Shown here in pieces: positions 18,019 to 60,183 of a DNA stretch of 64,000 bases. The notes beneath the pieces are model-generated. The model was not told where the DNA came from. It ran no database searches and was given only the letters and a program-made list of their open reading frames with translations. Position 1 is the first letter of the stretch. Each line of letters starts with the position of its first letter. The translations under genes and the position numbers were made by a program. This DNA is from Crocinitomix algicola. Lineage in GTDB: Bacteria; Bacteroidota; Bacteroidia; Flavobacteriales_D; Crocinitomicaceae. The stretch covers positions 1-64,000 of the forward strand of contig NZ_LYPF02000017.1 of the NCBI RefSeq assembly GCF_001661595.2. The letters run 5' to 3'.

Positions 18019-21000
18019 ATGAAAAAAAACACACTATTAACTCTAATAATCAGCTTAATAAGCTTTTATTCGCATGCAGCAGATCGCTATTGGATAGCGT
18101 CAACCTCAGCAAATTGGAATGATGTTTCAAACTGGTCTTCAACTAGTGGTGGCGCTGGCGGCGCTAGTGTACCAACAACTGGTGATTTTGTATTTTTTGA
18201 TGCAAACGGTTTAGGGGACTGTAATTTGGATATTGATGTTGCTTTTGATGGAATAAATACTACGGGGTATACGGGAACAATTGATTTGTTAGGCTATAAT
18301 TTCAATCCTACAATTTCAGGAACAGAGAATTGTCGCTTTCAAGATGGTGTAATCAATGATACACCAGGTACTGCTGAAATAGCTTTGACAACAATTGGAT
18401 ATATTTATTTCTATGGAACCGATTTTGGTGCAGCCATAGATATAGTTGCGTCAAGAATTTACCTAGATGCTGGAACATTTAATAGTACTGTAGAATTAGA
18501 ACAAAACGGAGCTTCAAACACAGCCAGTGATGGTGGCTGTACTTTTAATAGTACTCTATCAATTACCAATTCAGGCGCTGGGCAATTGACTTTATCCAAT
18601 ATAAATCCAGATATTTATAATGGGGAGCTTACAATTAACAATACCGGTACTTCAAATATTCAAATTGCAAGAAACGGTATTGGAAATGAATTTAATGATA
18701 ATGTTTTTCTTAACTCAACGAATGGAAGTGGAATTCGTATATCAAGTGGCACGGGTACCGCAAATTTAGCAATTGGTAAGACAATAAGTACAGGAGTTCT
18801 TGGTTTTACAAATGGCGAGTTAAGCTTCAACAAATTTACTCAGTTGGGAACAAGTGTTCAGTCAATTGTTTTAACAGGAGATGCAATTTTTAGATCCGAA
18901 AACAACACTATTTTTAATGCAGATTTAAATGTAGAGGCGCCACGCATTATTATAAGTGGGACAACTTTTAACGGCGTAACTACGATTGAAAAAACAGGAG
19001 CTCACACGGATTACTCTAATGGACTAAATGAATTTTCTGAAGATGTAACAATTATAAATTCGGGATCAGCACCAATCATATTTGGAAATTCTAATCCAGA
19101 TAATTTCTATGCTGACTTAACACTTATAAATAATGGTACTGACGATATCCATATCGCTTACGCTAGTCTTGGAAACAACATTAATGGTGATTTAAATGTT
19201 ACAAATACTGGTTTAGCTGAAAACATTTATCTAGCATCTCAAGCAACTAGTAGTTTAACAGTTTCAGGAAACTTAAACCTATTGAACGAAACAACTACTG
19301 ATTATAGCAACATATTTATTGGAAATGCAGGAGATCTTTCCGTTCTTGGTCGATTGGATGTAGTACAGAACGGAACTGGTCTTAATAGTACAATCTATAC
19401 AGCATATCATTCATCTTCTCAGGTTACAATCGGTGATGTTGCTCATTTTATAAACAATGGAACAGGTACTACAAAAAGGTTCTACATGGCCGTTTCTGGA
19501 GACATAGTATTTGACGATTCATTAATCATTGAGAACAATTCAACCGCTAACAATAACCACACCTATGCCAATCATTCCGCTGCAAGTTCAAACCTTTATA
19601 ATGGATCAATTGTAGTTACAAGTACTACTGTAAATGGTGATGGGGTTCATTTTGGTAGAAACGGAGGACTTGGAGAATTAGCAAGTGGACAAACGATTTC
19701 AATTGGAGCAGCAGGATTTATTGCCGGGGAGCTCTATTTTAATAGCTTCATACAAACAGGTGCAACCGCTCAATCAATTACCTTAAATGATGACGCTCGC
19801 TTAAATCTAATAGATAGTGATTGGGGCGGAAATATATCTTTTACTGCTCCACGAATAACAACGAGAAATACGCATTATGCAGCTCCAGTTTATTTTGAAA
19901 AAACAGCCAATGGGGATGACAATTCTTATGGTGGAAATACTTTTGATGACAACGTCGAGATTAAAAGCACTGGTCTTAATAGCTTCACTTTTGCCAATAA
20001 CGCTCCCGATACATTTGCATCCAATTTAACAATTAATAACGAAGGGAATGGAAGTATTACAATTGCTTCACAAACACCAGGGAACTACATTGGTGGCAAT
20101 GTTGAAGTAAACAATTTAGGGACCGGAGCATACAATTGCTACGTTACTTTAGGAGAAAGTCCGAGTTCATCACTGACTATTGATGGAGATGTTAATGTTG
20201 ATAACCTTGGCGATGCTAACAATGTTCGATTCTTGCTAGGATCAAGAGGAGAAGTTGTACTAAATGGAAACCTTACAATTGACCATAGTCCAACTGGAAA
20301 TGCAGGCTATATATACATTGCAAATAGCGCTGATGCAGATGTAACAATTAACGGAGATACACACCTCAACTTATCACCGAGCGGTGGTTCAACTAAAAGG
20401 GTTTATATCGCACAATCAGGTGATATCACATTTAATGGAGACTTAACGATCAATAATGAATCTGATGCTCCCAATTCTGAAGTAGATATTTGTAGAAATA
20501 AAATAGCAAACACCATTGTAAACGGAAATATTGTACTAACAAACACGAGTTCTGATGGAATATTTTTTGGTAATAATCAAGGAACAACACTACTCGCTGA
20601 TCCATATACAATTTCAATTGGAGCGGGTGGATATTCGGATGGAAAACTTTTCTTATATCAGTTCACCCAAGATGGTAGTACTCCTCAATCACTTCATTTA
20701 ACAGGAACTGGATATTTGAGACAAGACAGCTGTAACTGGGGTGGTGACGTAAATTTCGTTGCTCCAAGACAGTACGTAAGAGATTCTCGTTTTCAAGGTA
20801 CGGCATATATCGAAAAAACAGGGCTTTCTGAAGACCGTTCCTATGGCGGAAATATTTTTGAATTGAGCACAACCTTAAAGAACATCGGAGATGAAAACTT
20901 TATCATGGGATATAATGAACCTGATTCTTGTTTACTTGATTTAGAATTATACAATGAAGGGAGTGCCTCTTTACATTTTGCTACGCGAAGTATGGGTAAT

Positions 21001-24000
21001 TATGTTGATGGAAATATAACGGCAGAAAACACTGCGATAGGTGCAGGAACATCTGCCTTAACTTTAGCAAATAATGAAGCATCTTCTTTAGTTGTGAATG
21101 GTAATATCACAATAGACAATATCGGGTCAGCTGACCGAGTTGATGCTAGACTCGCATACAGTGGTTTGCTTACAATTAACGGAGATTTAAATATAGACCA
21201 TTCTCCAACCGGAAATGAAGGTTACATTTACATGGCTAATGGCAGCTTATCAAATGTTGAGATTAATGGTTCAACTGAGGTTAACATAGCAACAACTGGA
21301 GGAAATATTAGAAGAGCGTATTTTGGGTATGCTGGATCTATACAGTTTAATGGTGGTGTTACAGTGAATAATAATTCTAATGCAAATAATAATCAAGTGT
21401 ATTTTAATCACCGAGCTACCAGTCATAACTCGTATAATGGCAATATTACACTTACCAATACTCATTCGGCTGGGGATGGTTTTTTATTTGGTAGCGATGG
21501 TGGTTCAGGAGAATTAGCAGCAACATATACTGTAAGCATAGGGCCAGGTGGTTTTGTTGCTGGTGATCTTTATTTTAGAAATTTCACCCAAATTGGTTCG
21601 ACAGCGCAAACTTTAACAGGTACAGGAACTTCTTACTTTAGGAATTATGATAGTAATTGGGGGGGGAATGTGACTTTTACAGCTCCTCGTATGTATACCA
21701 ATGGAACCCGCTATCAGGGAACGGCGACGCTAGAAAAAACGGGTGCTACAGATGACGCTTCACCCGGTGGTAATATTTTCGAACTGGATGCTACACTCAT
21801 CAACTCTGGTTCTGGTTATTTTCTAATGGGTAATGGAAATTTTGATTTATGGCAAGCTGATTTAACTTTAGAAAGCCAAGGATCGGACCACATGTATATT
21901 GCTCACAATAGTGCGGGAAATATTATTGATGGAGACTTAACCATTAATGCTACGTCAACAGGTGCGACAAGCCAAAATATTTACGTTTCAACTTCATCGG
22001 CTTCCACGTTAGAAATTGGTGGTAACACTTCCATAAATAACACTGCAAATACAACTACAAGCAATATTTATTTTGGAGATGAGGGTGACATCGAATTAGC
22101 GGGTAACTTATCTATAATTAACAATGCTTATTCAACAAATTCTGATGTTTATATCGCAAGTGGAACAAACTCTCAAGTAACAATTAACGGTACCACTAAC
22201 CTTCAAAATGAAAAAACCAGCGGAACCTCAAAACAAATTTTTGTTGGTTACAATGGAGATGTAGTTTTGAATGGAGAATTAATAATGCACAATTCGGCTG
22301 ACGCAACTTATTCTGATATTAGTTTAAATGAAAGAGGAAACAGCTTAAATTTATACAACGAAAATATTGTCATAAATTCTGATGAAGCAGGGAATGAGGG
22401 TATTTATTTTGGACGTTACGACGGAGCCGGTACATTGGCTGCTGGTAAAACAATCAGTATAGGAGCAGATGATTTTATTGGACAAAATTTATTGTTCCGA
22501 AATTTCACTCAATTAGGTGGTACAGCACAAACTTTGGAACCAACTTCAGGTTTAACACGATTTGAAACGAGAGAGTCAATTTGGAATGGTGAAGTTACAT
22601 TTTCTAGTCCACGAATTTACCTAAACAATACAACATTCAACGCGAATGCAACACTTGAAAAGACTGGAGCTCAAAATGACCACAGTGCTGGAGGTAATAC
22701 TTTTAATGGCGTTGCAGATTTAATTACATCGGGTAGCAACAATTTTATTCCTTCTTACGGAACGCCTAATGATTTCAACGACGATGTTTATTACAGAGAC
22801 TTGAACACAGGGGTTATTTTACCTACTTATAATTGTGAAAGCACATATGCTGGCTCTATATTTATTGAAGCAAATCAAGAAACAACGTTAGGTGGAGGTT
22901 CAATTGGACGTGTAATCTTTGATGGTGTTGGCCCACAATCTATTAATGTGATTGGTGCGACACCTTCTCCAAGAATTAGAGATGTACAAACTTTGAACGC
23001 GGTTGATGACATTACTGTAAACACTCCTTTTGAAATTATAAGTGTCCTTGACTTGGATCAAGGTAACCTTATTACCACCACAACAAATGTTATTAGCATG
23101 CGAGATAATTCCACAGTAAGCTCCGTTTCAGATAATGCCTATGTTGATGGCCCAATTATCAAAGTAGGTAATGATATTTTTACTTTCCCTGTTGGAAAAG
23201 CTGGTAAATACCGACCTATTGAATTAGTAACTGCACCTTCTAGTGGTTCTGCTCAATTTAGAGCTGAATATTTTCCAAATGACGTTGTTGACGACGGTAT
23301 TTCCGACACACCAGTGGAGCCAACAATTCACCACATTAGTGATTGCGAATACTGGATGCTCGATCGTTTAGCATCGGCTAGTTCGGCAGTTGTTGGTATT
23401 TACTATGAAGATTTTGGAGCTGAAAATTGTAGTGGCGTAGAGGAACAAGCCGATCTTATCGTAAGTAGATGGACCGGTTCAATTTGGCAAGATTTAGGTA
23501 ATGGAGGGTTTACCGGAACACCAGAAGATGGTTGGGTGCGCTCTTTAGGTGCGGTTACCGACTTCAGTCCTTTTACTTTAGGAACTATTTCTGCCCTTAA
23601 CCCTCTCCCTGTTGAACTTGTGAATTTTGAAGCTAAAAAACAAGAAACTTCTACACTCGTACAATGGGAAACCGCCTCTGAGGTAAATAATGATTTCTTT
23701 TTTGTAGAGAGATCATCAAATGGTATCGACTTTGAGGTAATTGCTCAAGTTGATGGAGCTGGAAACAGTAATAAAACAATCTACTACGACTATATAGACG
23801 AAAATCCTCATTTAGGTATGAATTATTATCGATTGAAGCAAGTTGATTTTGATGGTGCTTTTGAATATAGCAAGACGAAATCGGTATTATTCGATGCAAA
23901 TGTATCCATCAAGCTATTCCCAAATCCAATTCAGCAAGGGAATGAACTAATGGTTGAAGCTGACGCCAACATCTTAAACATTGAGATTTGGAATGAAGCC

Positions 24001-24141
24001 GGTAAGCAAATCAACGTAATGAATATTGATAAAAATCAGAATAGAATAAACTACGCTACATCTGAATTAGCTACAGGAATCTACTATATAAAAATAACAA
24101 CAGAGAATGCTGTTGAGGTGAAAAAACTAATGGTACATTAA
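18019..24141 (+). CDS. Giant repetitive secreted protein with T9SS type A sorting domain
   Basis: A 2040-residue protein with a signal peptide (MKKNTLLTLIISLISFYSHA). It opens with a domain seen in many secreted bacteroidotal proteins (RYWIASTSANWNDVSNWSS). The body (about 120-1590) is beta-solenoid-like, with four full units of ~305 residues flanked by partial ones. Each unit opens with a TISIG block followed by a F-T-Q-x-G-x-T-A-Q segment and a W-G-G-x-V-x-F-x-A-P-R segment. Inside each unit are ~27-30-residue subrepeats of the form LTINGNxxIxN. A non-repeat region (about 1590-1860) precedes LPVELVNFEAKKQ, a fibronectin-like segment and the C-terminal T9SS signal (LFPNP ... GIYYIKI ... KKLMVH). 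It is probably exported across the outer membrane and displayed or released; an adhesin or matrix role is inferred. No enzyme motif was seen. Confidence 0.93.
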   Translation: MKKNTLLTLIISLISFYSHAADRYWIASTSANWNDVSNWSSTSGGAGGASVPTTGDFVFFDANGLGDCNLDIDVAFDGINTTGYTGTIDLLGYNFNPTISGTENCRFQDGVINDTPGTAEIALTTIGYIYFYGTDFGAAIDIVASRIYLDAGTFNSTVELEQNGASNTASDGGCTFNSTLSITNSGAGQLTLSNINPDIYNGELTINNTGTSNIQIARNGIGNEFNDNVFLNSTNGSGIRISSGTGTANLAIGKTISTGVLGFTNGELSFNKFTQLGTSVQSIVLTGDAIFRSENNTIFNADLNVEAPRIIISGTTFNGVTTIEKTGAHTDYSNGLNEFSEDVTIINSGSAPIIFGNSNPDNFYADLTLINNGTDDIHIAYASLGNNINGDLNVTNTGLAENIYLASQATSSLTVSGNLNLLNETTTDYSNIFIGNAGDLSVLGRLDVVQNGTGLNSTIYTAYHSSSQVTIGDVAHFINNGTGTTKRFYMAVSGDIVFDDSLIIENNSTANNNHTYANHSAASSNLYNGSIVVTSTTVNGDGVHFGRNGGLGELASGQTISIGAAGFIAGELYFNSFIQTGATAQSITLNDDARLNLIDSDWGGNISFTAPRITTRNTHYAAPVYFEKTANGDDNSYGGNTFDDNVEIKSTGLNSFTFANNAPDTFASNLTINNEGNGSITIASQTPGNYIGGNVEVNNLGTGAYNCYVTLGESPSSSLTIDGDVNVDNLGDANNVRFLLGSRGEVVLNGNLTIDHSPTGNAGYIYIANSADADVTINGDTHLNLSPSGGSTKRVYIAQSGDITFNGDLTINNESDAPNSEVDICRNKIANTIVNGNIVLTNTSSDGIFFGNNQGTTLLADPYTISIGAGGYSDGKLFLYQFTQDGSTPQSLHLTGTGYLRQDSCNWGGDVNFVAPRQYVRDSRFQGTAYIEKTGLSEDRSYGGNIFELSTTLKNIGDENFIMGYNEPDSCLLDLELYNEGSASLHFATRSMGNYVDGNITAENTAIGAGTSALTLANNEASSLVVNGNITIDNIGSADRVDARLAYSGLLTINGDLNIDHSPTGNEGYIYMANGSLSNVEINGSTEVNIATTGGNIRRAYFGYAGSIQFNGGVTVNNNSNANNNQVYFNHRATSHNSYNGNITLTNTHSAGDGFLFGSDGGSGELAATYTVSIGPGGFVAGDLYFRNFTQIGSTAQTLTGTGTSYFRNYDSNWGGNVTFTAPRMYTNGTRYQGTATLEKTGATDDASPGGNIFELDATLINSGSGYFLMGNGNFDLWQADLTLESQGSDHMYIAHNSAGNIIDGDLTINATSTGATSQNIYVSTSSASTLEIGGNTSINNTANTTTSNIYFGDEGDIELAGNLSIINNAYSTNSDVYIASGTNSQVTINGTTNLQNEKTSGTSKQIFVGYNGDVVLNGELIMHNSADATYSDISLNERGNSLNLYNENIVINSDEAGNEGIYFGRYDGAGTLAAGKTISIGADDFIGQNLLFRNFTQLGGTAQTLEPTSGLTRFETRESIWNGEVTFSSPRIYLNNTTFNANATLEKTGAQNDHSAGGNTFNGVADLITSGSNNFIPSYGTPNDFNDDVYYRDLNTGVILPTYNCESTYAGSIFIEANQETTLGGGSIGRVIFDGVGPQSINVIGATPSPRIRDVQTLNAVDDITVNTPFEIISVLDLDQGNLITTTTNVISMRDNSTVSSVSDNAYVDGPIIKVGNDIFTFPVGKAGKYRPIELVTAPSSGSAQFRAEYFPNDVVDDGISDTPVEPTIHHISDCEYWMLDRLASASSAVVGIYYEDFGAENCSGVEEQADLIVSRWTGSIWQDLGNGGFTGTPEDGWVRSLGAVTDFSPFTLGTISALNPLPVELVNFEAKKQETSTLVQWETASEVNNDFFFVERSSNGIDFEVIAQVDGAGNSNKTIYYDYIDENPHLGMNYYRLKQVDFDGAFEYSKTKSVLFDANVSIKLFPNPIQQGNELMVEADANILNIEIWNEAGKQINVMNIDKNQNRINYATSELATGIYYIKITTENAVEVKKLMVH
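18781..22449 (+). repeat. Four ~915-bp in-frame repeat units in the giant cargo gene
   Basis: Using the Thr codon of the TISIG block as marker, units begin at 18781, 19693, 20608 and 21529, and a fifth partial unit begins at 22450. The spacings are 912, 915, 921 and 921 bases (304 to 307 codons). A partial unit also precedes the first. Units are diverged in DNA but clearly aligned in protein, so they are old duplications rather than recent slippage. Confidence 0.9.
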
Positions 24142-24153
24142 ATTGAAATACAC

Positions 24154-24193
24154 GGAGGTTTAAAGGTTATTGTTCAATAATCTTTAAACTTCC
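24154..24193. terminator. Long hairpin between convergent genes, probable bidirectional terminator
   Basis: A 19-base stem with two G-T wobbles (plus-strand reading) and a two-base loop: GGAGGTTTAAAGG... pairs with ...CTTTAAACTTCC. It starts 12 bases after the giant gene's stop and includes the last codons and stop of the convergent gene. Confidence 0.65.
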
Positions 24194-25069
24194 TTCATTT
24201 CCATAAGGGCCACGCTTTTGGCCATCAACTTTAGGTCTCCATAGTTCGCCTCCTTCTCCACCATAATTGAGTATAAAAACTTGATCAAAATAAGGTTTGG
24301 CACGTGGTGACAAATAAACGGTTACATCTCCTCCATCTCCACCTTTCCCTCCGCTTCTACTTATCCCTCCTTTTCCTCCAATACTTTCAATCTCTAATTG
24401 ACCTATTTCAGGGATTAATGTTTTAGTAACTCTCCCACCAAATTCATCTATAATTTTTACTCGAATAAATGCCTTACTCATCGTGTCTATTACTGAAACA
24501 AACACCTCCAAATCTGGTCCTTTTCCACCAATTATTGCAGGATCACTGTTATTCGTTAACGTTTGTTCATTATCGATGAATTCAACATTTACTCTACCTG
24601 CTATAGGTATTTTCCGATATCCATTTTCTGTGGTCGAACGTGGATCAAATCCGTCTTCTCCTTGATAAACTACACGTTGCGTTAAATCATACCTAATTGG
24701 AATTCGTAAGAAATGTTTAATTTCTCCTTTACGTCGCAACTTAATTTTTAACTCTACAAAGGGGTTCAGATATGAGTTTTCTGAGACCCTTAAGCTCATC
24801 ACTGTTCTGGACTTTTGAATCAACTCAACTCCATTCAACATCTCAAATTCATAATCCGAAAAATTAATGGTAAAATTCGAAGTTTGCGAATGAAGTTTAG
24901 TAGAATCACGTAAAGTTGTTGTAATGCCAACATTAAATTCTTGACCTGGTAAAAGTTCCTCTACTTCCAATGTAATCTTACCGTCAATTATTTTCTTTAA
25001 TTGTCCCGGCTTAATTAACGAAAGTGCACTGAGCCCCACTATGCATGTGAAGAAAAGTTTTTTCAACAT
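24167..25069 (-). CDS. Secreted protein of unknown function with Gly-rich repeats
   Basis: A 300-residue protein with an N-terminal hydrophobic signal (KKLFFTCIVGLSALSL). The first half is beta-rich and unassigned. The second half has stretches of the form GGKGG: at 181-184, at 231-248 (GGKGGISRSGGKGGDGGD) and at 270-274. The last part (GQKRGPYGNEG) continues the glycine spacing. Such segments resemble short glycine-rich or collagen-like loops seen between strands in secreted bacteroidotal proteins. No catalytic motif was found. It is convergent with the giant T9SS cargo gene, and both are predicted to leave the cytoplasm, but a joint function is not shown. It lacks a recognisable T9SS sorting domain. 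Confidence 0.65.
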   Translation of the reverse strand: MLKKLFFTCIVGLSALSLIKPGQLKKIIDGKITLEVEELLPGQEFNVGITTTLRDSTKLHSQTSNFTINFSDYEFEMLNGVELIQKSRTVMSLRVSENSYLNPFVELKIKLRRKGEIKHFLRIPIRYDLTQRVVYQGEDGFDPRSTTENGYRKIPIAGRVNVEFIDNEQTLTNNSDPAIIGGKGPDLEVFVSVIDTMSKAFIRVKIIDEFGGRVTKTLIPEIGQLEIESIGGKGGISRSGGKGGDGGDVTVYLSPRAKPYFDQVFILNYGGEGGELWRPKVDGQKRGPYGNEGSLKIIEQ

Positions 25070-25116: not shown

Positions 25117-26418
25117 TTACGCTGCGTTTTTATTTTTCTTTTCCTCCCTTTTTGATTTATAATATGGGCGAATGATCAAGCGTAATCCGTTATTATATTT
25201 AAAGTAGTTCCACATCCAATTCACAAAAACCACAACTCTATTTCTAAAGCCGACCAACAGCATTAAGTGCACGAACATCCAAACAAACCATGCAAATATT
25301 CCCTGAAATTTAAATCCTTTTGTTTCAACCACCGCTCTATTTTTTCCGACAGTTGCCATTGAGCCTTTATCATTATATTCAAATGGTTGAACGGACTTGT
25401 TTTTGAGTTTTCGATTAAAAAAATGCGCTAAATAAGCTCCTTGTTGCATGGCAACTGAACCCATCATTGGATGCCCATTTGGGTATGCTTCTGATTCAAC
25501 TAAAGCTACATCTCCCACTACAAAAACAGATTCATCACCCGGTAATTGACAATAACCATTTACTTTTACCCGATTACCACGACCAATATTTGAAGCATCA
25601 ATCCCTTTAGGAATTTGACCCTTAACACCAGCAGCCCAGATTAAGTTATCAGAATAGAAATCCTCGTTACTGGTATGCACCGTACCTTCAATGTAGTCCT
25701 CTACTTTTGTATTTTCCCAAATATGAACTCCTAAATTCTTCAAATAAGTCTTCGCCTTCGAAGACGACTTTTCATTCATTGCTGATAAAATTCTCGGAGC
25801 GGCCTCAATGAGATGAATTTTCATCATTCTCAAATCTAAATCAGGAAAATCCTTTGGTAATATTTTATTTTTCAACTCCGCCAATGCCCCAGCCAATTCA
25901 ACTCCTGTAGGTCCAGCACCAACAATAACGAAATTTGTTAAGCGTTCACGCTCTTTTAAATCGTGCGTATTTAATGCGATCTCAAAATTCTGTAAAATCT
26001 TACTTCGTAAATCCAAGGCTTCAACCAATGATTTCATCGGCACCGCATTCTCCTCAATCGTCTTATTGCCAAAAAAATTATTCCCCGCACCAGTTGCAAT
26101 AACCAAATAATCATATTTTATTTTCCCAATATTTGTATTGACAAGCTTTTGATTCAGTTCAACACCTTCAACCTCTGCCATTCGATAATAAGTATTGGGT
26201 TTCCGCCTAAGAATTTTTCGAATTGGATAAGCGATTGAATCGGGCTCCAAACCAGCTGAAGCAACTTGATACAATAAGGGTTGAAAAGTATGATAATTAT
26301 TCTTGTCGACAAGAACGACTTGGTAATGGTTGGAATTGATTTGTCTGGCTAACTTTAGTCCGGCAAATCCCGCGCCAATTACCACTACTCGCGGTAAATC
26401 TATCGTTGGGATATTCAT
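25117..26418 (-). CDS. ndh: Type II NADH dehydrogenase (NDH-2, FAD/NAD(P)-binding)
   Basis: A 433-residue flavoprotein that oxidises NADH and reduces quinone at the inner membrane without pumping protons. The FAD dinucleotide fold starts with VVVIGAGFAG (11-20), the NADH-binding fold with FVIVGAGPTGVELAGAL (about 163-179), and the conserved A-A-G-V-K-G and FVVGDVALVES blocks follow. A hydrophobic C-terminal region (FAWFVWMFVHLMLLVG) and a basic tail fit membrane attachment. Length is normal. A perfect -7 element sits 15 bases upstream of the ATG, giving a very short leader. The gene appears monocistronic. A generic pyridine-nucleotide disulfide oxidoreductase is the less likely alternative. 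Confidence 0.9.
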   Translation of the reverse strand: MNIPTIDLPRVVVIGAGFAGLKLARQINSNHYQVVLVDKNNYHTFQPLLYQVASAGLEPDSIAYPIRKILRRKPNTYYRMAEVEGVELNQKLVNTNIGKIKYDYLVIATGAGNNFFGNKTIEENAVPMKSLVEALDLRSKILQNFEIALNTHDLKERERLTNFVIVGAGPTGVELAGALAELKNKILPKDFPDLDLRMMKIHLIEAAPRILSAMNEKSSSKAKTYLKNLGVHIWENTKVEDYIEGTVHTSNEDFYSDNLIWAAGVKGQIPKGIDASNIGRGNRVKVNGYCQLPGDESVFVVGDVALVESEAYPNGHPMMGSVAMQQGAYLAHFFNRKLKNKSVQPFEYNDKGSMATVGKNRAVVETKGFKFQGIFAWFVWMFVHLMLLVGFRNRVVVFVNWMWNYFKYNNGLRLIIRPYYKSKREEKKNKNAA

Positions 26419-56523: not shown

Positions 56524-59500
56524 ATGAATTTGAAAACAAAAAGGCGCTTTATTTGGACAGCTGGAATAGGATTTCTATTCTGGATTTTAGGCTCCTATTT
56601 GTTTCATTATCATCTTAACGTCAACATAGGAGAAGGTGGGATTTCAGATTTCGAAGCTGCTTATCAGGAGAAATCTACCGAATTATATAAAGAGTTGAAT
56701 CAATTTTCATCTCGATTTCCTTCACAAAAAACTGTAGACGCTCGATTTGCACTTGCGCAAAAACTCGAAAAAGAGACGGGATTTTCATTTTACTCGTTCA
56801 ATGGGGATACCCTCGATTTATGGTCCAGCAATCGAATAGCTGTTCCACACCCCAGTGACTCTTATTGGGAGCATAACGAGATCGTTCTCCTCCAAAATGG
56901 TTGGTATAAATTAGCCACTTACAGAGACGAAGAACGACTATTCGTTGCTGCTTTTTTGGTTAAAAATGAATATTACTATGAAAATGAAGATTTGGTAAAT
57001 GAGTTCTCTCCAGAACTAGCACCAAACCTCAGTGGCGATATTTCATTTTCCGAAAAAGGATTTCCGGTTCACAACATAAACGGAGAACATATTTTTTCAA
57101 TTATTCCAAGTGATGAAACAGAAAAAAATCTCACATTAGAATTAATCGTCTTTAGCTTGTATTTGGTTGGATTTCTTATTCTTCTTCAACTATTAATCAA
57201 CGCTTTTCAACGTCTATTAATTACAAAACCAATTTTATTAATTCTATTTCCTCTTGGGATAGTCTTATTGCGCTATTTGTGGTTAACCTCCGAATTCACA
57301 GGCTTATTTTCTGATTTCGAATTATTTAACCCTGAGCTATTCGCCTCCTCCAACCTTGCACCTTCTTTGGGAGACTTGATTATCAATATTTCCATCTTTT
57401 ATTTTATCGTTCATTTTTTACTAAAGCGCACAAGAAATTGGTTTGCTACTGGAAACCTTAAATTGAAACTCGTTGTATTTGTCGTTCCTCTTTTTCTCTC
57501 CAGTTTTTACATCGCTTTCCAAATCAATGAAATTATCCACTCCCTAGTCTACAACTCTAAAATTCCCTTTGATTTAGAGCGCCTTTTTGATCTGAACCAA
57601 TACACTTTTGTGAGTATTGCATTAATAGGTGCGAGTTTCTATGCCTATTTTAAACTGGTTCAATACATTATTATTCAATTAAAAGCCAGCAAATTTGAAT
57701 GGAATAAATTGGCCTTTATGTGGGTAATATCCTCGGGCGTTTATATTGTAACCGATCAATATTATTTCGATCAAAGTTTGCTCACCTCTCTTTGGCCAAT
57801 ATTTTTGAGTGGTTCGTTATTATGGTTTCATTTTACCGAGAGTGATTATAAATTTGCGCATGTAATCAGCATGCTTGCTTTTATTGCATTTTATGCCTCT
57901 TATATTTTGCAAGGTTACAGCGCCGATAAAGAAAGGGAAATTCGAAAATTTCAAGCCGACAAAATTGCTAAAGACCGGGATCCTTTGACTGAAATTGATT
58001 TTGCAGAATTAGCAAAAAAAATGGAAGCTGATGAATTTTTAGCTCCCTATTTTATTGGTAATTTTGACCACTCTATATTCAGTGAAACTATAGAAGAGCG
58101 GTATTTCGATCGGTTAAAGGATAAATTTCAATTTAAGTTTTTCCTATTCGATTCGAATGAAAAGTTGCTATATGACCCTCGTAATTATGACTTAAAATCT
58201 TTTGAGCGCTTTGAAGAAATCATCAAGACTTCAGGAATTTCAACGGCAGCTTCGCCCGATTTGTATTTTATAAACAACTACACTGATAAACTCAATTACC
58301 TATCAAAAATAGATATCATACATAAAGATTCATTGTATGGTCATTTATTCACAGAATTTCGTTCCACAAAATTTCCAGATGAAATAGGTTTACCATCCCT
58401 ACTACTAGACGATAGAACCGCAAACATCAATCACTTAAAAAACTACTCCATTGCAAAATATGTGAACAATAACCTTGTCACGCGGCGTGGTGATTATAAT
58501 TATCCAACTTCCGCATTTTATTGGGTGAACAAGGTTGGAACGTTTACTGAAAAAGGAAATTACAATCATTTTGTTTACTTGAGTGAGGAAGGTGATTACA
58601 CGGTTGTATCGAAAGAATCTTCTACGGGAATAGCCTTGTTTACTTCTTTCTCCTACCTCCTTATAATATTTGGCGTATTGCTTTTAATCCCTTTAATTTA
58701 CGTACAACTCCAACGAAAGGTCAATTTTAACAATATCAAACTTAATGTAAAAATTCAGGCTGTATTAATTAGTCTCATCTTTATAACACTTGTCGCATTT
58801 GCTGTTGGTGCTGGGGCCTATGTTGCAGATATCAACCTAGAAACCAATAAAGATTTATTAAAAGAGAAAATTGGCGCCGTAAAAATTGAAATTGAAGATC
58901 GATTAAAACAAGAAGAGGAGGTAGACGAAACCGAAGCAGAATATTTAGAATTCTTGCTAACAAAATTCTCCCGTGTGTTTGTAACGGACATCAACATCTT
59001 TGATCATAAGGGTGATCTTCTCGCTTCAAGTCAACCAAAAATATATTCTCAGGGCTTAGTATCAAAGAAAATGAATACGTCAGCATATCGCGGAATTTAT
59101 TTAAATAATCAAAGTGAGTATATCCACAAAGAAAGAATCGGTAAACTGGAATATTTATCTGGATATCGTCCGATATATAATGACCAAGGGAACTTTTTGG
59201 CATTTTTAAATGTTCAATACATTTCTCGACAACAAGAAATGGAAAATCAAATCTCGGGGTTTCTTTTGGCTATTATTAATATAATGGTATTCATGTTGGC
59301 CTTTTCAACGATACTTTCTATTACAGTTTCCAATCGATTAATTCGACCTTTAAAATATATTCAAGAAAGCATTAAAAACGTACAAATTGGGTCTGGATCT
59401 CAGTCTATTGCTTATCATAGAACCGATGAAATTGGTGATTTAGTGAAAGAATATAATAAAAAAGTGGACGAACTACAGAAAAATGCAGAGATGTTAGCGA

Positions 59501-60183
59501 AAAGTGAACGTGAAAGCGCTTGGCGTGAGATGGCTAAACAAGTGGCGCATGAAATAAAAAATCCATTAACGCCGATGAAACTATCCATTCAACATTTATC
59601 GCGTTCGGTTCAATTAGCGAATGAAGAATCAGAAGAGAAATTACAGCGGGTCACAAAATCTTTAATCGAACAAATTGATGCATTAACCACGATTGCTAAC
59701 GAATTTTCGAACTTCGCAAAAATGCCAAAGCCAAGTGAAACAGAAGTGGATTTGACCGAAATTCTACAGAGCACAATCTCCGTATTTGCTGAATATGATC
59801 AGCATCAAATTAACCTTCATATTGAGCCAAAAACGCCAACCTTAGTTTGGGCAGATAAAGATTTATTATTGCGTGTTTTTAATAACCTCACAAAAAACGC
59901 CATTCAAGCTATTCCTGTAGGTGAACAAGGCCTTATTTCGGTCACACTAACCGAATCCGAAAACTATTACAAAATTGAAGTTAAGGATAATGGAGTAGGA
60001 ATTAAACAAACCGAAAAAGAACGTATTTTTGTTCCCTATTTCACGACTAAATCTAAAGGTACTGGTTTAGGGTTAGCAATGTCAAAACAAATTGTTGAAA
60101 GTATGCAGGGAAAAATTTGGTTTGAATCAGAAATAAACGTTGGAACATCATTTTTCATTAACTTCCCAAAATTAAATCATTAA
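56524..60183 (+). CDS. Large NtrY-like membrane sensor histidine kinase
   Basis: A 1219-residue histidine kinase. The N-terminus is a signal-anchor (about 11-28) with an extracytoplasmic domain of about 180 residues. Then come five to seven membrane segments (about 213-470), a second extracytoplasmic region (about 480-700), another membrane pair around 705-770, and a dCache/PAS-like loop up to 920. A HAMP domain lies near 945-995 (RLIRPLKYIQESIKNV). The H box is QVAHEIKNPLTPMKL with phospho-acceptor H1009, the N box begins at N1120 (NNLTKNAIQAIP), and glycine boxes GVGI and GTGLGLAMSK follow. No response regulator is adjacent. NtrY-type kinases act on nitrogen or envelope signals; the signal here is unknown. 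The antiporter gene follows one base after the stop. Confidence 0.93.
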   Translation: MNLKTKRRFIWTAGIGFLFWILGSYLFHYHLNVNIGEGGISDFEAAYQEKSTELYKELNQFSSRFPSQKTVDARFALAQKLEKETGFSFYSFNGDTLDLWSSNRIAVPHPSDSYWEHNEIVLLQNGWYKLATYRDEERLFVAAFLVKNEYYYENEDLVNEFSPELAPNLSGDISFSEKGFPVHNINGEHIFSIIPSDETEKNLTLELIVFSLYLVGFLILLQLLINAFQRLLITKPILLILFPLGIVLLRYLWLTSEFTGLFSDFELFNPELFASSNLAPSLGDLIINISIFYFIVHFLLKRTRNWFATGNLKLKLVVFVVPLFLSSFYIAFQINEIIHSLVYNSKIPFDLERLFDLNQYTFVSIALIGASFYAYFKLVQYIIIQLKASKFEWNKLAFMWVISSGVYIVTDQYYFDQSLLTSLWPIFLSGSLLWFHFTESDYKFAHVISMLAFIAFYASYILQGYSADKEREIRKFQADKIAKDRDPLTEIDFAELAKKMEADEFLAPYFIGNFDHSIFSETIEERYFDRLKDKFQFKFFLFDSNEKLLYDPRNYDLKSFERFEEIIKTSGISTAASPDLYFINNYTDKLNYLSKIDIIHKDSLYGHLFTEFRSTKFPDEIGLPSLLLDDRTANINHLKNYSIAKYVNNNLVTRRGDYNYPTSAFYWVNKVGTFTEKGNYNHFVYLSEEGDYTVVSKESSTGIALFTSFSYLLIIFGVLLLIPLIYVQLQRKVNFNNIKLNVKIQAVLISLIFITLVAFAVGAGAYVADINLETNKDLLKEKIGAVKIEIEDRLKQEEEVDETEAEYLEFLLTKFSRVFVTDINIFDHKGDLLASSQPKIYSQGLVSKKMNTSAYRGIYLNNQSEYIHKERIGKLEYLSGYRPIYNDQGNFLAFLNVQYISRQQEMENQISGFLLAIINIMVFMLAFSTILSITVSNRLIRPLKYIQESIKNVQIGSGSQSIAYHRTDEIGDLVKEYNKKVDELQKNAEMLAKSERESAWREMAKQVAHEIKNPLTPMKLSIQHLSRSVQLANEESEEKLQRVTKSLIEQIDALTTIANEFSNFAKMPKPSETEVDLTEILQSTISVFAEYDQHQINLHIEPKTPTLVWADKDLLLRVFNNLTKNAIQAIPVGEQGLISVTLTESENYYKIEVKDNGVGIKQTEKERIFVPYFTTKSKGTGLGLAMSKQIVESMQGKIWFESEINVGTSFFINFPKLNH

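Follow-up and report, generated by a model that had tools for sequence, protein, structure and literature searches.

Introduction

EtpA, HMW1 and Hap are adhesins of type V secretion, and SprB, the gliding adhesin, is a large and repetitive surface protein linked to the T9SS. Tannerella TfsA and TfsB form an S-layer. Among these proteins, SprB is called the main adhesin in PMC8986121, and TfsA and TfsB are named as T9SS cargo in PMC8869499, while type A cargo is described as covalently anchored to anionic lipopolysaccharide (PMC9143113). In chlamydial Pmp passengers, sequence repeats match the coils of a β-helix (PMC11166332, PMC10715098). These proteins are autotransporters with tetrapeptide motifs of their own, and a unit composed of a node plus turns is not mentioned at the level of the abstracts.

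Here we describe a gene of Crocinitomix algicola, hereafter the rod gene, located in a stretch of 64,000 nucleotides that was analysed as a whole (the window). By fold comparison, its product resembles EtpA, HMW1 and Hap in its predicted long β-helix, but differs from them by its T9SS sorting domain, by the order of its repeats (an irregular block of five turns, the node, combined with regular turns) and by the lack of a sequence match in the PDB. It resembles SprB as a large, repetitive protein linked to the T9SS, although without a match to SprB repeats in Pfam at E<=1, and the chlamydial Pmp proteins in the correspondence between sequence repeats and β-helix coils. Finally, it carries the C-terminal sorting domain of the type A T9SS cargo of Bacteroidota, whereas its repeat region matches no named Pfam or NCBIfam family at E<=1.

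Results

The rod gene is an open reading frame extending from an ATG to a stop codon (Table 1). The sorting domain at its C-terminus scored 37.9 bits with PF18962 (cut-off 27) and 38.3 bits with TIGR04183 (cut-off 23). Two components of the T9SS machinery are encoded in the same genome: SprA (TIGR04189) was detected with 2363 bits, and GldM (TIGR03517) is above its cut-off once the pieces lying in one frame are summed. Together, these results agree with the earlier note, made from the DNA letters, in which the protein had been taken for T9SS cargo, and indicate that it is probably exported to the bacterial surface. In relatives, the sorting domain was found at E <1e-3 in all seven proteins scanned, four of them being above the Pfam cut-off. 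Since this domain (Por_Secre_tail) was the only match at E<=1, the Pfam and NCBIfam scans gave neither a ligand-binding domain nor the C-terminal β-barrel of type V autotransporters.

Several observations concern other parts of the genome. Two GldM-like frames of 575 and 576 residues lie near each other (G000:C22:28524-34048). About 70 residues of a 3004-residue frame (L029, G000:C8:58166-58378) resemble the N-terminus of the rod protein with 43% identity, and a match of this kind is present in frames of about 3000 residues in several genomes of the family. The stretch starting at about residue 1861 (window 23599-24135, + strand) has nine further matches in the genome, one of which contains two internal stops; this recurrence gives it the appearance of a module used by cargo proteins in general. 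A promoter scan gave 2 matches against a shuffle mean of 1.7, i.e. no excess.

Table 1. Coordinates of the rod gene and of the parts of its product. Positions are those of the window; aa, residues of the protein.
Feature	Position	Strand	Extent	Basis or remark
Whole gene	18019..24141	+	2040 aa	Sole Pfam/NCBIfam match at E<=1 is the T9SS sorting domain
Probable Sec signal peptide	18019..18078	+	aa 1-20	Sequence inspected by eye; SHA end, then ADRYW
N-terminal cap region	18079..18294	+	aa 21-92	Similar to a stretch within another frame (3004 aa) of this genome
U0, first short unit	18295..18780	+	aa 93-254	Next unit starts 162 aa on; one-extra-turn class
U1, full unit	18781..19692	+	304 aa	Unit alignment and profile
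U2, full unit	19693..20607	+	305 aa	Unit alignment and profile
U3, full unit	20608..21528	+	307 aa	Alignment and profile; β-helix in the model
U4, full unit	21529..22449	+	307 aa	Alignment and profile; β-helix in the model
U5, last partial unit	22450..22833	+	at least most of the node	Profile; unit tree
C-terminal module before the sorting signal	23599..23913	+	aa 1861-1965	Also present at nine further genomic sites
T9SS type A C-terminal sorting domain	23914..24135	+	aa 1966-2039	PF18962, TIGR04183

Units start at residues 255, 559, 864, 1171 and 1478; successive starts are 304, 305, 307 and 307 residues apart. The spacing that had been reported for TISIG markers is therefore confirmed, but TISIG itself occurs at three of the five starts (559, 864 and 1478), the variants TISTG and TVSIG standing at 255 and 1171. 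Alignments between the four full units extend over their entire length, each pair sharing 104-125 identities over 298-305 positions (34-41%), with local scores of 426-640; of the 100 shuffles made for each pair, the best scored 105. U0 outscored its shuffles in comparisons with each of the other five units, as did U5 with U0 to U4. When a profile built from 26 aligned units was run on the whole assembly, six matches were obtained at E<=0.001, all inside the rod gene. These data confirm that the protein comprises four full units of about 305 residues and two partial ones, as first described. The DNA of the units is diverged, again as described, with 52-58% identity between units. TRF detected no array; because its longest period is 500 bases, shorter than the unit, it is blind to a repeat of about 305 residues. 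A recent tandem duplication in the rod gene was rejected on the basis of both identity ranges and of the unit tree presented below.

Two units (residues 864-1477) were modelled with AlphaFold2 from 29 alignment rows. The resulting model (pLDDT 95.2, pTM 0.89) contains strands and loops only, and its strand list, with boundaries read by eye, gives 11 turns per 307-residue unit and three strands per turn. Turn lengths are 35 (A), 18 (B), 22 (C), 24 (D), 25 (E), 30 (F), 27 (G), 29 (H), 28 (I), 29 (J) and 40 (K) residues. The β-helix predicted here is in line with the long β-solenoid that the earlier note had proposed, and from the fold matches we infer parallel strands and a right-handed helix. 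The nested blocks of about 27-30 residues announced for each unit are seen in the model as six regular turns (E to J) of 25-30 residues, with the correction that the other five turns are irregular (18-40 residues).

The lengths of turns K, A, B, C and D sum to 139 residues, which matches the smallest spacing class found in relatives (138 residues, see below). This equality was recorded before a relative was modelled. In order to test the prediction, two units of a relative with 138-residue spacing were modelled from ten rows (pLDDT 94.8, pTM 0.91); five turns per unit were observed, of 38, 18, 22, 24 and 36 residues (boundaries read by eye). Judged from these models, the unit is very probably made of an irregular five-turn node (about 40, 35, 18, 22 and 24 residues) and n regular turns of about 28 residues, n being six in the present protein.

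Foldseek gave no match in the PDB at E<=1e-3 (best 0.13). After re-scoring of the Foldseek list with VIA-align, the top rows among the matches listed were β-helix proteins with Z 15-19, headed by EtpA (Z 19.0, rmsd 14.9) and HMW1 (Z 18.9, rmsd 3.5, 253 aligned) and including the HK620 tailspike (Z about 18), while other folds such as leucine-rich repeats had low Z. A sequence search of the PDB gave no match, and a second one gave just two irrelevant catalase-peroxidases (E about 0.9). The unit is thus without a named family in Pfam, NCBIfam and PDB sequences, as the first inspection had suggested, and no counterpart of the node-plus-turn pattern was found in the literature searched at the level of titles and abstracts.

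The spacing of nodes was then compared among relatives, using a node model that covers columns 1-137 of the unit alignment. Matches below 20 bits and the duplicate loci L034, L035 and L036 were left out. The set comprised 33 open frames including that of the window, among which are fragments as well as frames sharing a genome, and it includes 22 units outside the window that served to build the node model. At least one step was available in 31 frames, giving 139 steps that fall into seven classes when clusters are split at gaps of more than 8 residues (Table 2).

Table 2. Classes of node-to-node steps among relatives (139 steps, 31 frames). Lengths are in residues.
Class mean	Steps	Range
138	27	135-146
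164	41	159-174
192	8	185-194
247	11	246-248
306	36	302-316
334	4	333-336
361	12	359-367

The class means are best fitted by a comb with a quantum of 28.1 residues (R 0.97), a fit equalled by 1 in 2000 random sets of seven means, where the null counts classes and not proteins as units because steps within one protein are related. R was 0.87 on all 139 steps and 0.82 on 61 values (one per class and frame). Few lineages stand behind the classes: of the 27 steps in the smallest class, 22 come from the related proteins L061 and L063. Some classes are wide (159-174 and 302-316), and several relatives mix spacing classes within one protein. Among the 139 steps, no class corresponds to three extra turns (about 220 residues) or to five (about 276 residues), a gap that may be due to too few independent events. 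Two weak and similar relatives show a spacing of 229 residues.

Sixteen newly fetched frames, mostly from other families, were compared to a preset comb (138.2 residues plus multiples of 27.9), the duplicate L085 being excluded and the two alike loci L097 and L098 both counted. Fifty of their 76 steps were at most 5 residues off the comb, compared to about 30 expected. The comb was weaker than in the first set, with R 0.62 at 28.1 residues and R 0.66 at the best quantum of 28.7. Four of the 76 steps (18-33 residues) are probably split matches, and off-comb steps were found at 185-187 and 255-257 residues, as if turn size differed by lineage.

On sequence evidence, length differences among the rods of relatives are mostly of whole turns, and among close relatives the distance between nodes varies in increments of about one turn. 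The idea that the even spacing implies selection for a 305-residue geometry was not supported, since spacings in relatives extend from about 138 to 361 residues and several can be mixed in one protein; in view of the seven classes, a fixed period of 305 residues was rejected as the selected trait. Inheritance and constraint by the fold give the best reading of the spacing in the rod, which is not a fixed trait of the family.

It is most single turns, rather than the unit, whose length is kept nearly constant. In 21 units of at most 320 residues, turns B, D and E are invariant in length, the sd is <=0.45 for seven of the remaining nine segments, and the variable turns are F (sd 1.4) and K (sd 2.4). 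Mean identity is 47% in the node versus 35% in the regular turns, and the node is the more conserved in 315 of 325 pairs. When short nodes, low-scoring nodes and two duplicates were left out, Lys70 was kept in 187 of 198 nodes, Asn82 in 186 and Asp106 in 177, and Gln21 in 179 of 197; Gln27 is a further conserved residue of the node. This conservation suggests that the node has a task, though its role could be purely structural.

A unit tree was built from 143 nodes; it is based on few columns, and 37 of its 140 inner branches are open. The last units of 15 frames group in one clade (99/97), and the clade of U5 contains last-in-frame units only, while the last units of other frames (e.g. L051, L054, L059-L063) are placed elsewhere. 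U2 to U4 of the window belong to a ten-row clade (99/83), where they are joined by units from a genome of the same genus and from a related genus. This suggests that the middle units were duplicated before these genera split. As old duplications would thus be shared with the related genus, descent and fold constraint can explain the even spacing.

The protein is patchily distributed. A search with residues 21-1650 at E<=0.001 found matches in 39 of 200 genomes of the family, many of them just through about 50-100 N-terminal residues. Matches to the 26-unit profile were obtained in 20 of 240 family genomes, in 31 of 399 at the level of the order and in 5 of 395 at that of the phylum (own genome included each time), a few of them being weak, as in G060 and G023, whose stretches have no node match. 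With 20 of 240 family genomes matching, some weakly, the rod does not serve a core function. Among nine genomes of the same genus, the full array was present in two (that of the window and G031), and one weak match was found in each of two more. A scan of named genomes gave 18 loci, mostly in MAGs called Flavobacteriales, Crocinitomicaceae or Bacteroidia; one (L056) is in an Aureispira MAG, raising a possible link to the grappling hooks of Aureispira.

A viral link of the rod was not supported: 10 pattern matches were obtained and none was confirmed by tblastn, and the two models of a viral fold library found at E<=1e-3 (best 2.5e-6) had TM-scores <=0.16. The one promising row of this library, at rank 4 (E 2.7e-3, TM 0.47), is an unnamed phage protein.

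A conserved neighbourhood was rejected. The upstream ligase gene (putative ileS, by eye), the rod gene, a gene for 300 residues and an oxidoreductase gene occur together beyond the window in G031 alone. This comparison covered 27 loci, L036 and L049 being one and the same place. The 300-residue gene (24167-25069, - strand) is convergent with the rod gene, which it also adjoins in G031 (42% identity), and has no Pfam or NCBIfam match at E<=1. A homologue (49%) of the window oxidoreductase (25117-26418) lies near a rod gene in a different arrangement (L050:1902-3197). Elsewhere in the window, 56524-60183 (+ strand) encodes a protein of 1219 residues whose C-terminal part matches sensor histidine kinases, all below curated cut-offs among the 25 of 80 families listed.

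Discussion

On balance, we favour a β-helix surface rod built from nodes and turns, and probably adhesive, as the explanation of these data. That the gene product is a secreted surface rod appears likely. Its probable Sec signal and its type A sorting domain would carry it through the T9SS, its C-terminus would be fixed at the outer membrane and the rod would project outward. As a β-helix rises by about 0.48 nm per turn, 11 turns would place nodes about 5 nm apart, in a rod measuring very roughly 26 nm in total. Node-to-node distance would shift by whole turns and every node would stay on the same side; because whole-turn changes would keep the nodes co-facing, the same surface feature would recur every 5 nm or so. 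In the least certain step of this scheme, nodes would bind a surface polymer or a partner, which would make the rod a multivalent adhesin. The chances that the rod works in adhesion seem to us about even, this reading being drawn from the likely surface export and by analogy with β-helix adhesins, because no ligand-binding domain was found at E<=1. The missing Foldseek match in the PDB at E<=1e-3, the weaker comb of the newly fetched frames, the width of some classes, the variable turns F and K and the patchy distribution weigh against the favoured explanation.

The even spacing could also be functionless, the outcome of old duplication and of a fold that bars part-turn insertions and deletions, with the rod acting as a passive spacer or coat. 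The variation of spacing among relatives, the clade uniting U2 to U4 with units of the same and a related genus, for which old duplication suffices, and the C-terminal module common to other frames would all fit such a protein, but the higher identity of the node and the retention of its Lys70 and Asp106 argue against it; we regard it as possible, though rather unlikely.

A β-helix enzyme degrading polysaccharides, with one active site per node, is improbable. GH110 (Z 18.2) and DFA-IIIase (Z 16.8) are found beside the HK620 tailspike among the VIA-align matches, and Lys, Asp and Gln are conserved within each node. Against this, no enzyme family was matched in Pfam or NCBIfam at E<=1, a search that a new family would escape, and the number of nodes varies widely among relatives.

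Least probable of all is an S-layer-like coat protein delivered by the T9SS and packed side by side, for which TfsA and TfsB would be precedents as T9SS cargo, fixed turn lengths would suit lateral packing and the S-layer protein RsaA gave a fold match (Z 14.8), but which is at odds with a single gene copy and with a patchy occurrence (20 of 240 family genomes) where one would expect a coat protein to be common across its lineage.

Within the favoured reading of a probably adhesive surface rod, it is tempting but doubtful to see a length-adjustable molecular ruler, with like binding nodes on one face at a distance set by inserted turns. If this were true, evolution would tune node spacing by one-turn steps (about 0.48 nm) to fit a periodic partner. 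An unnamed family of giant, probable surface proteins of Bacteroidota is captured by one rule, a five-turn node plus n turns, and this rule agreed with the predicted fold of a relative of different spacing. With its members ranging from 0 to 8 spacer turns, the family would thereby provide natural variants of one rod, in which node spacing could be tested against binding.
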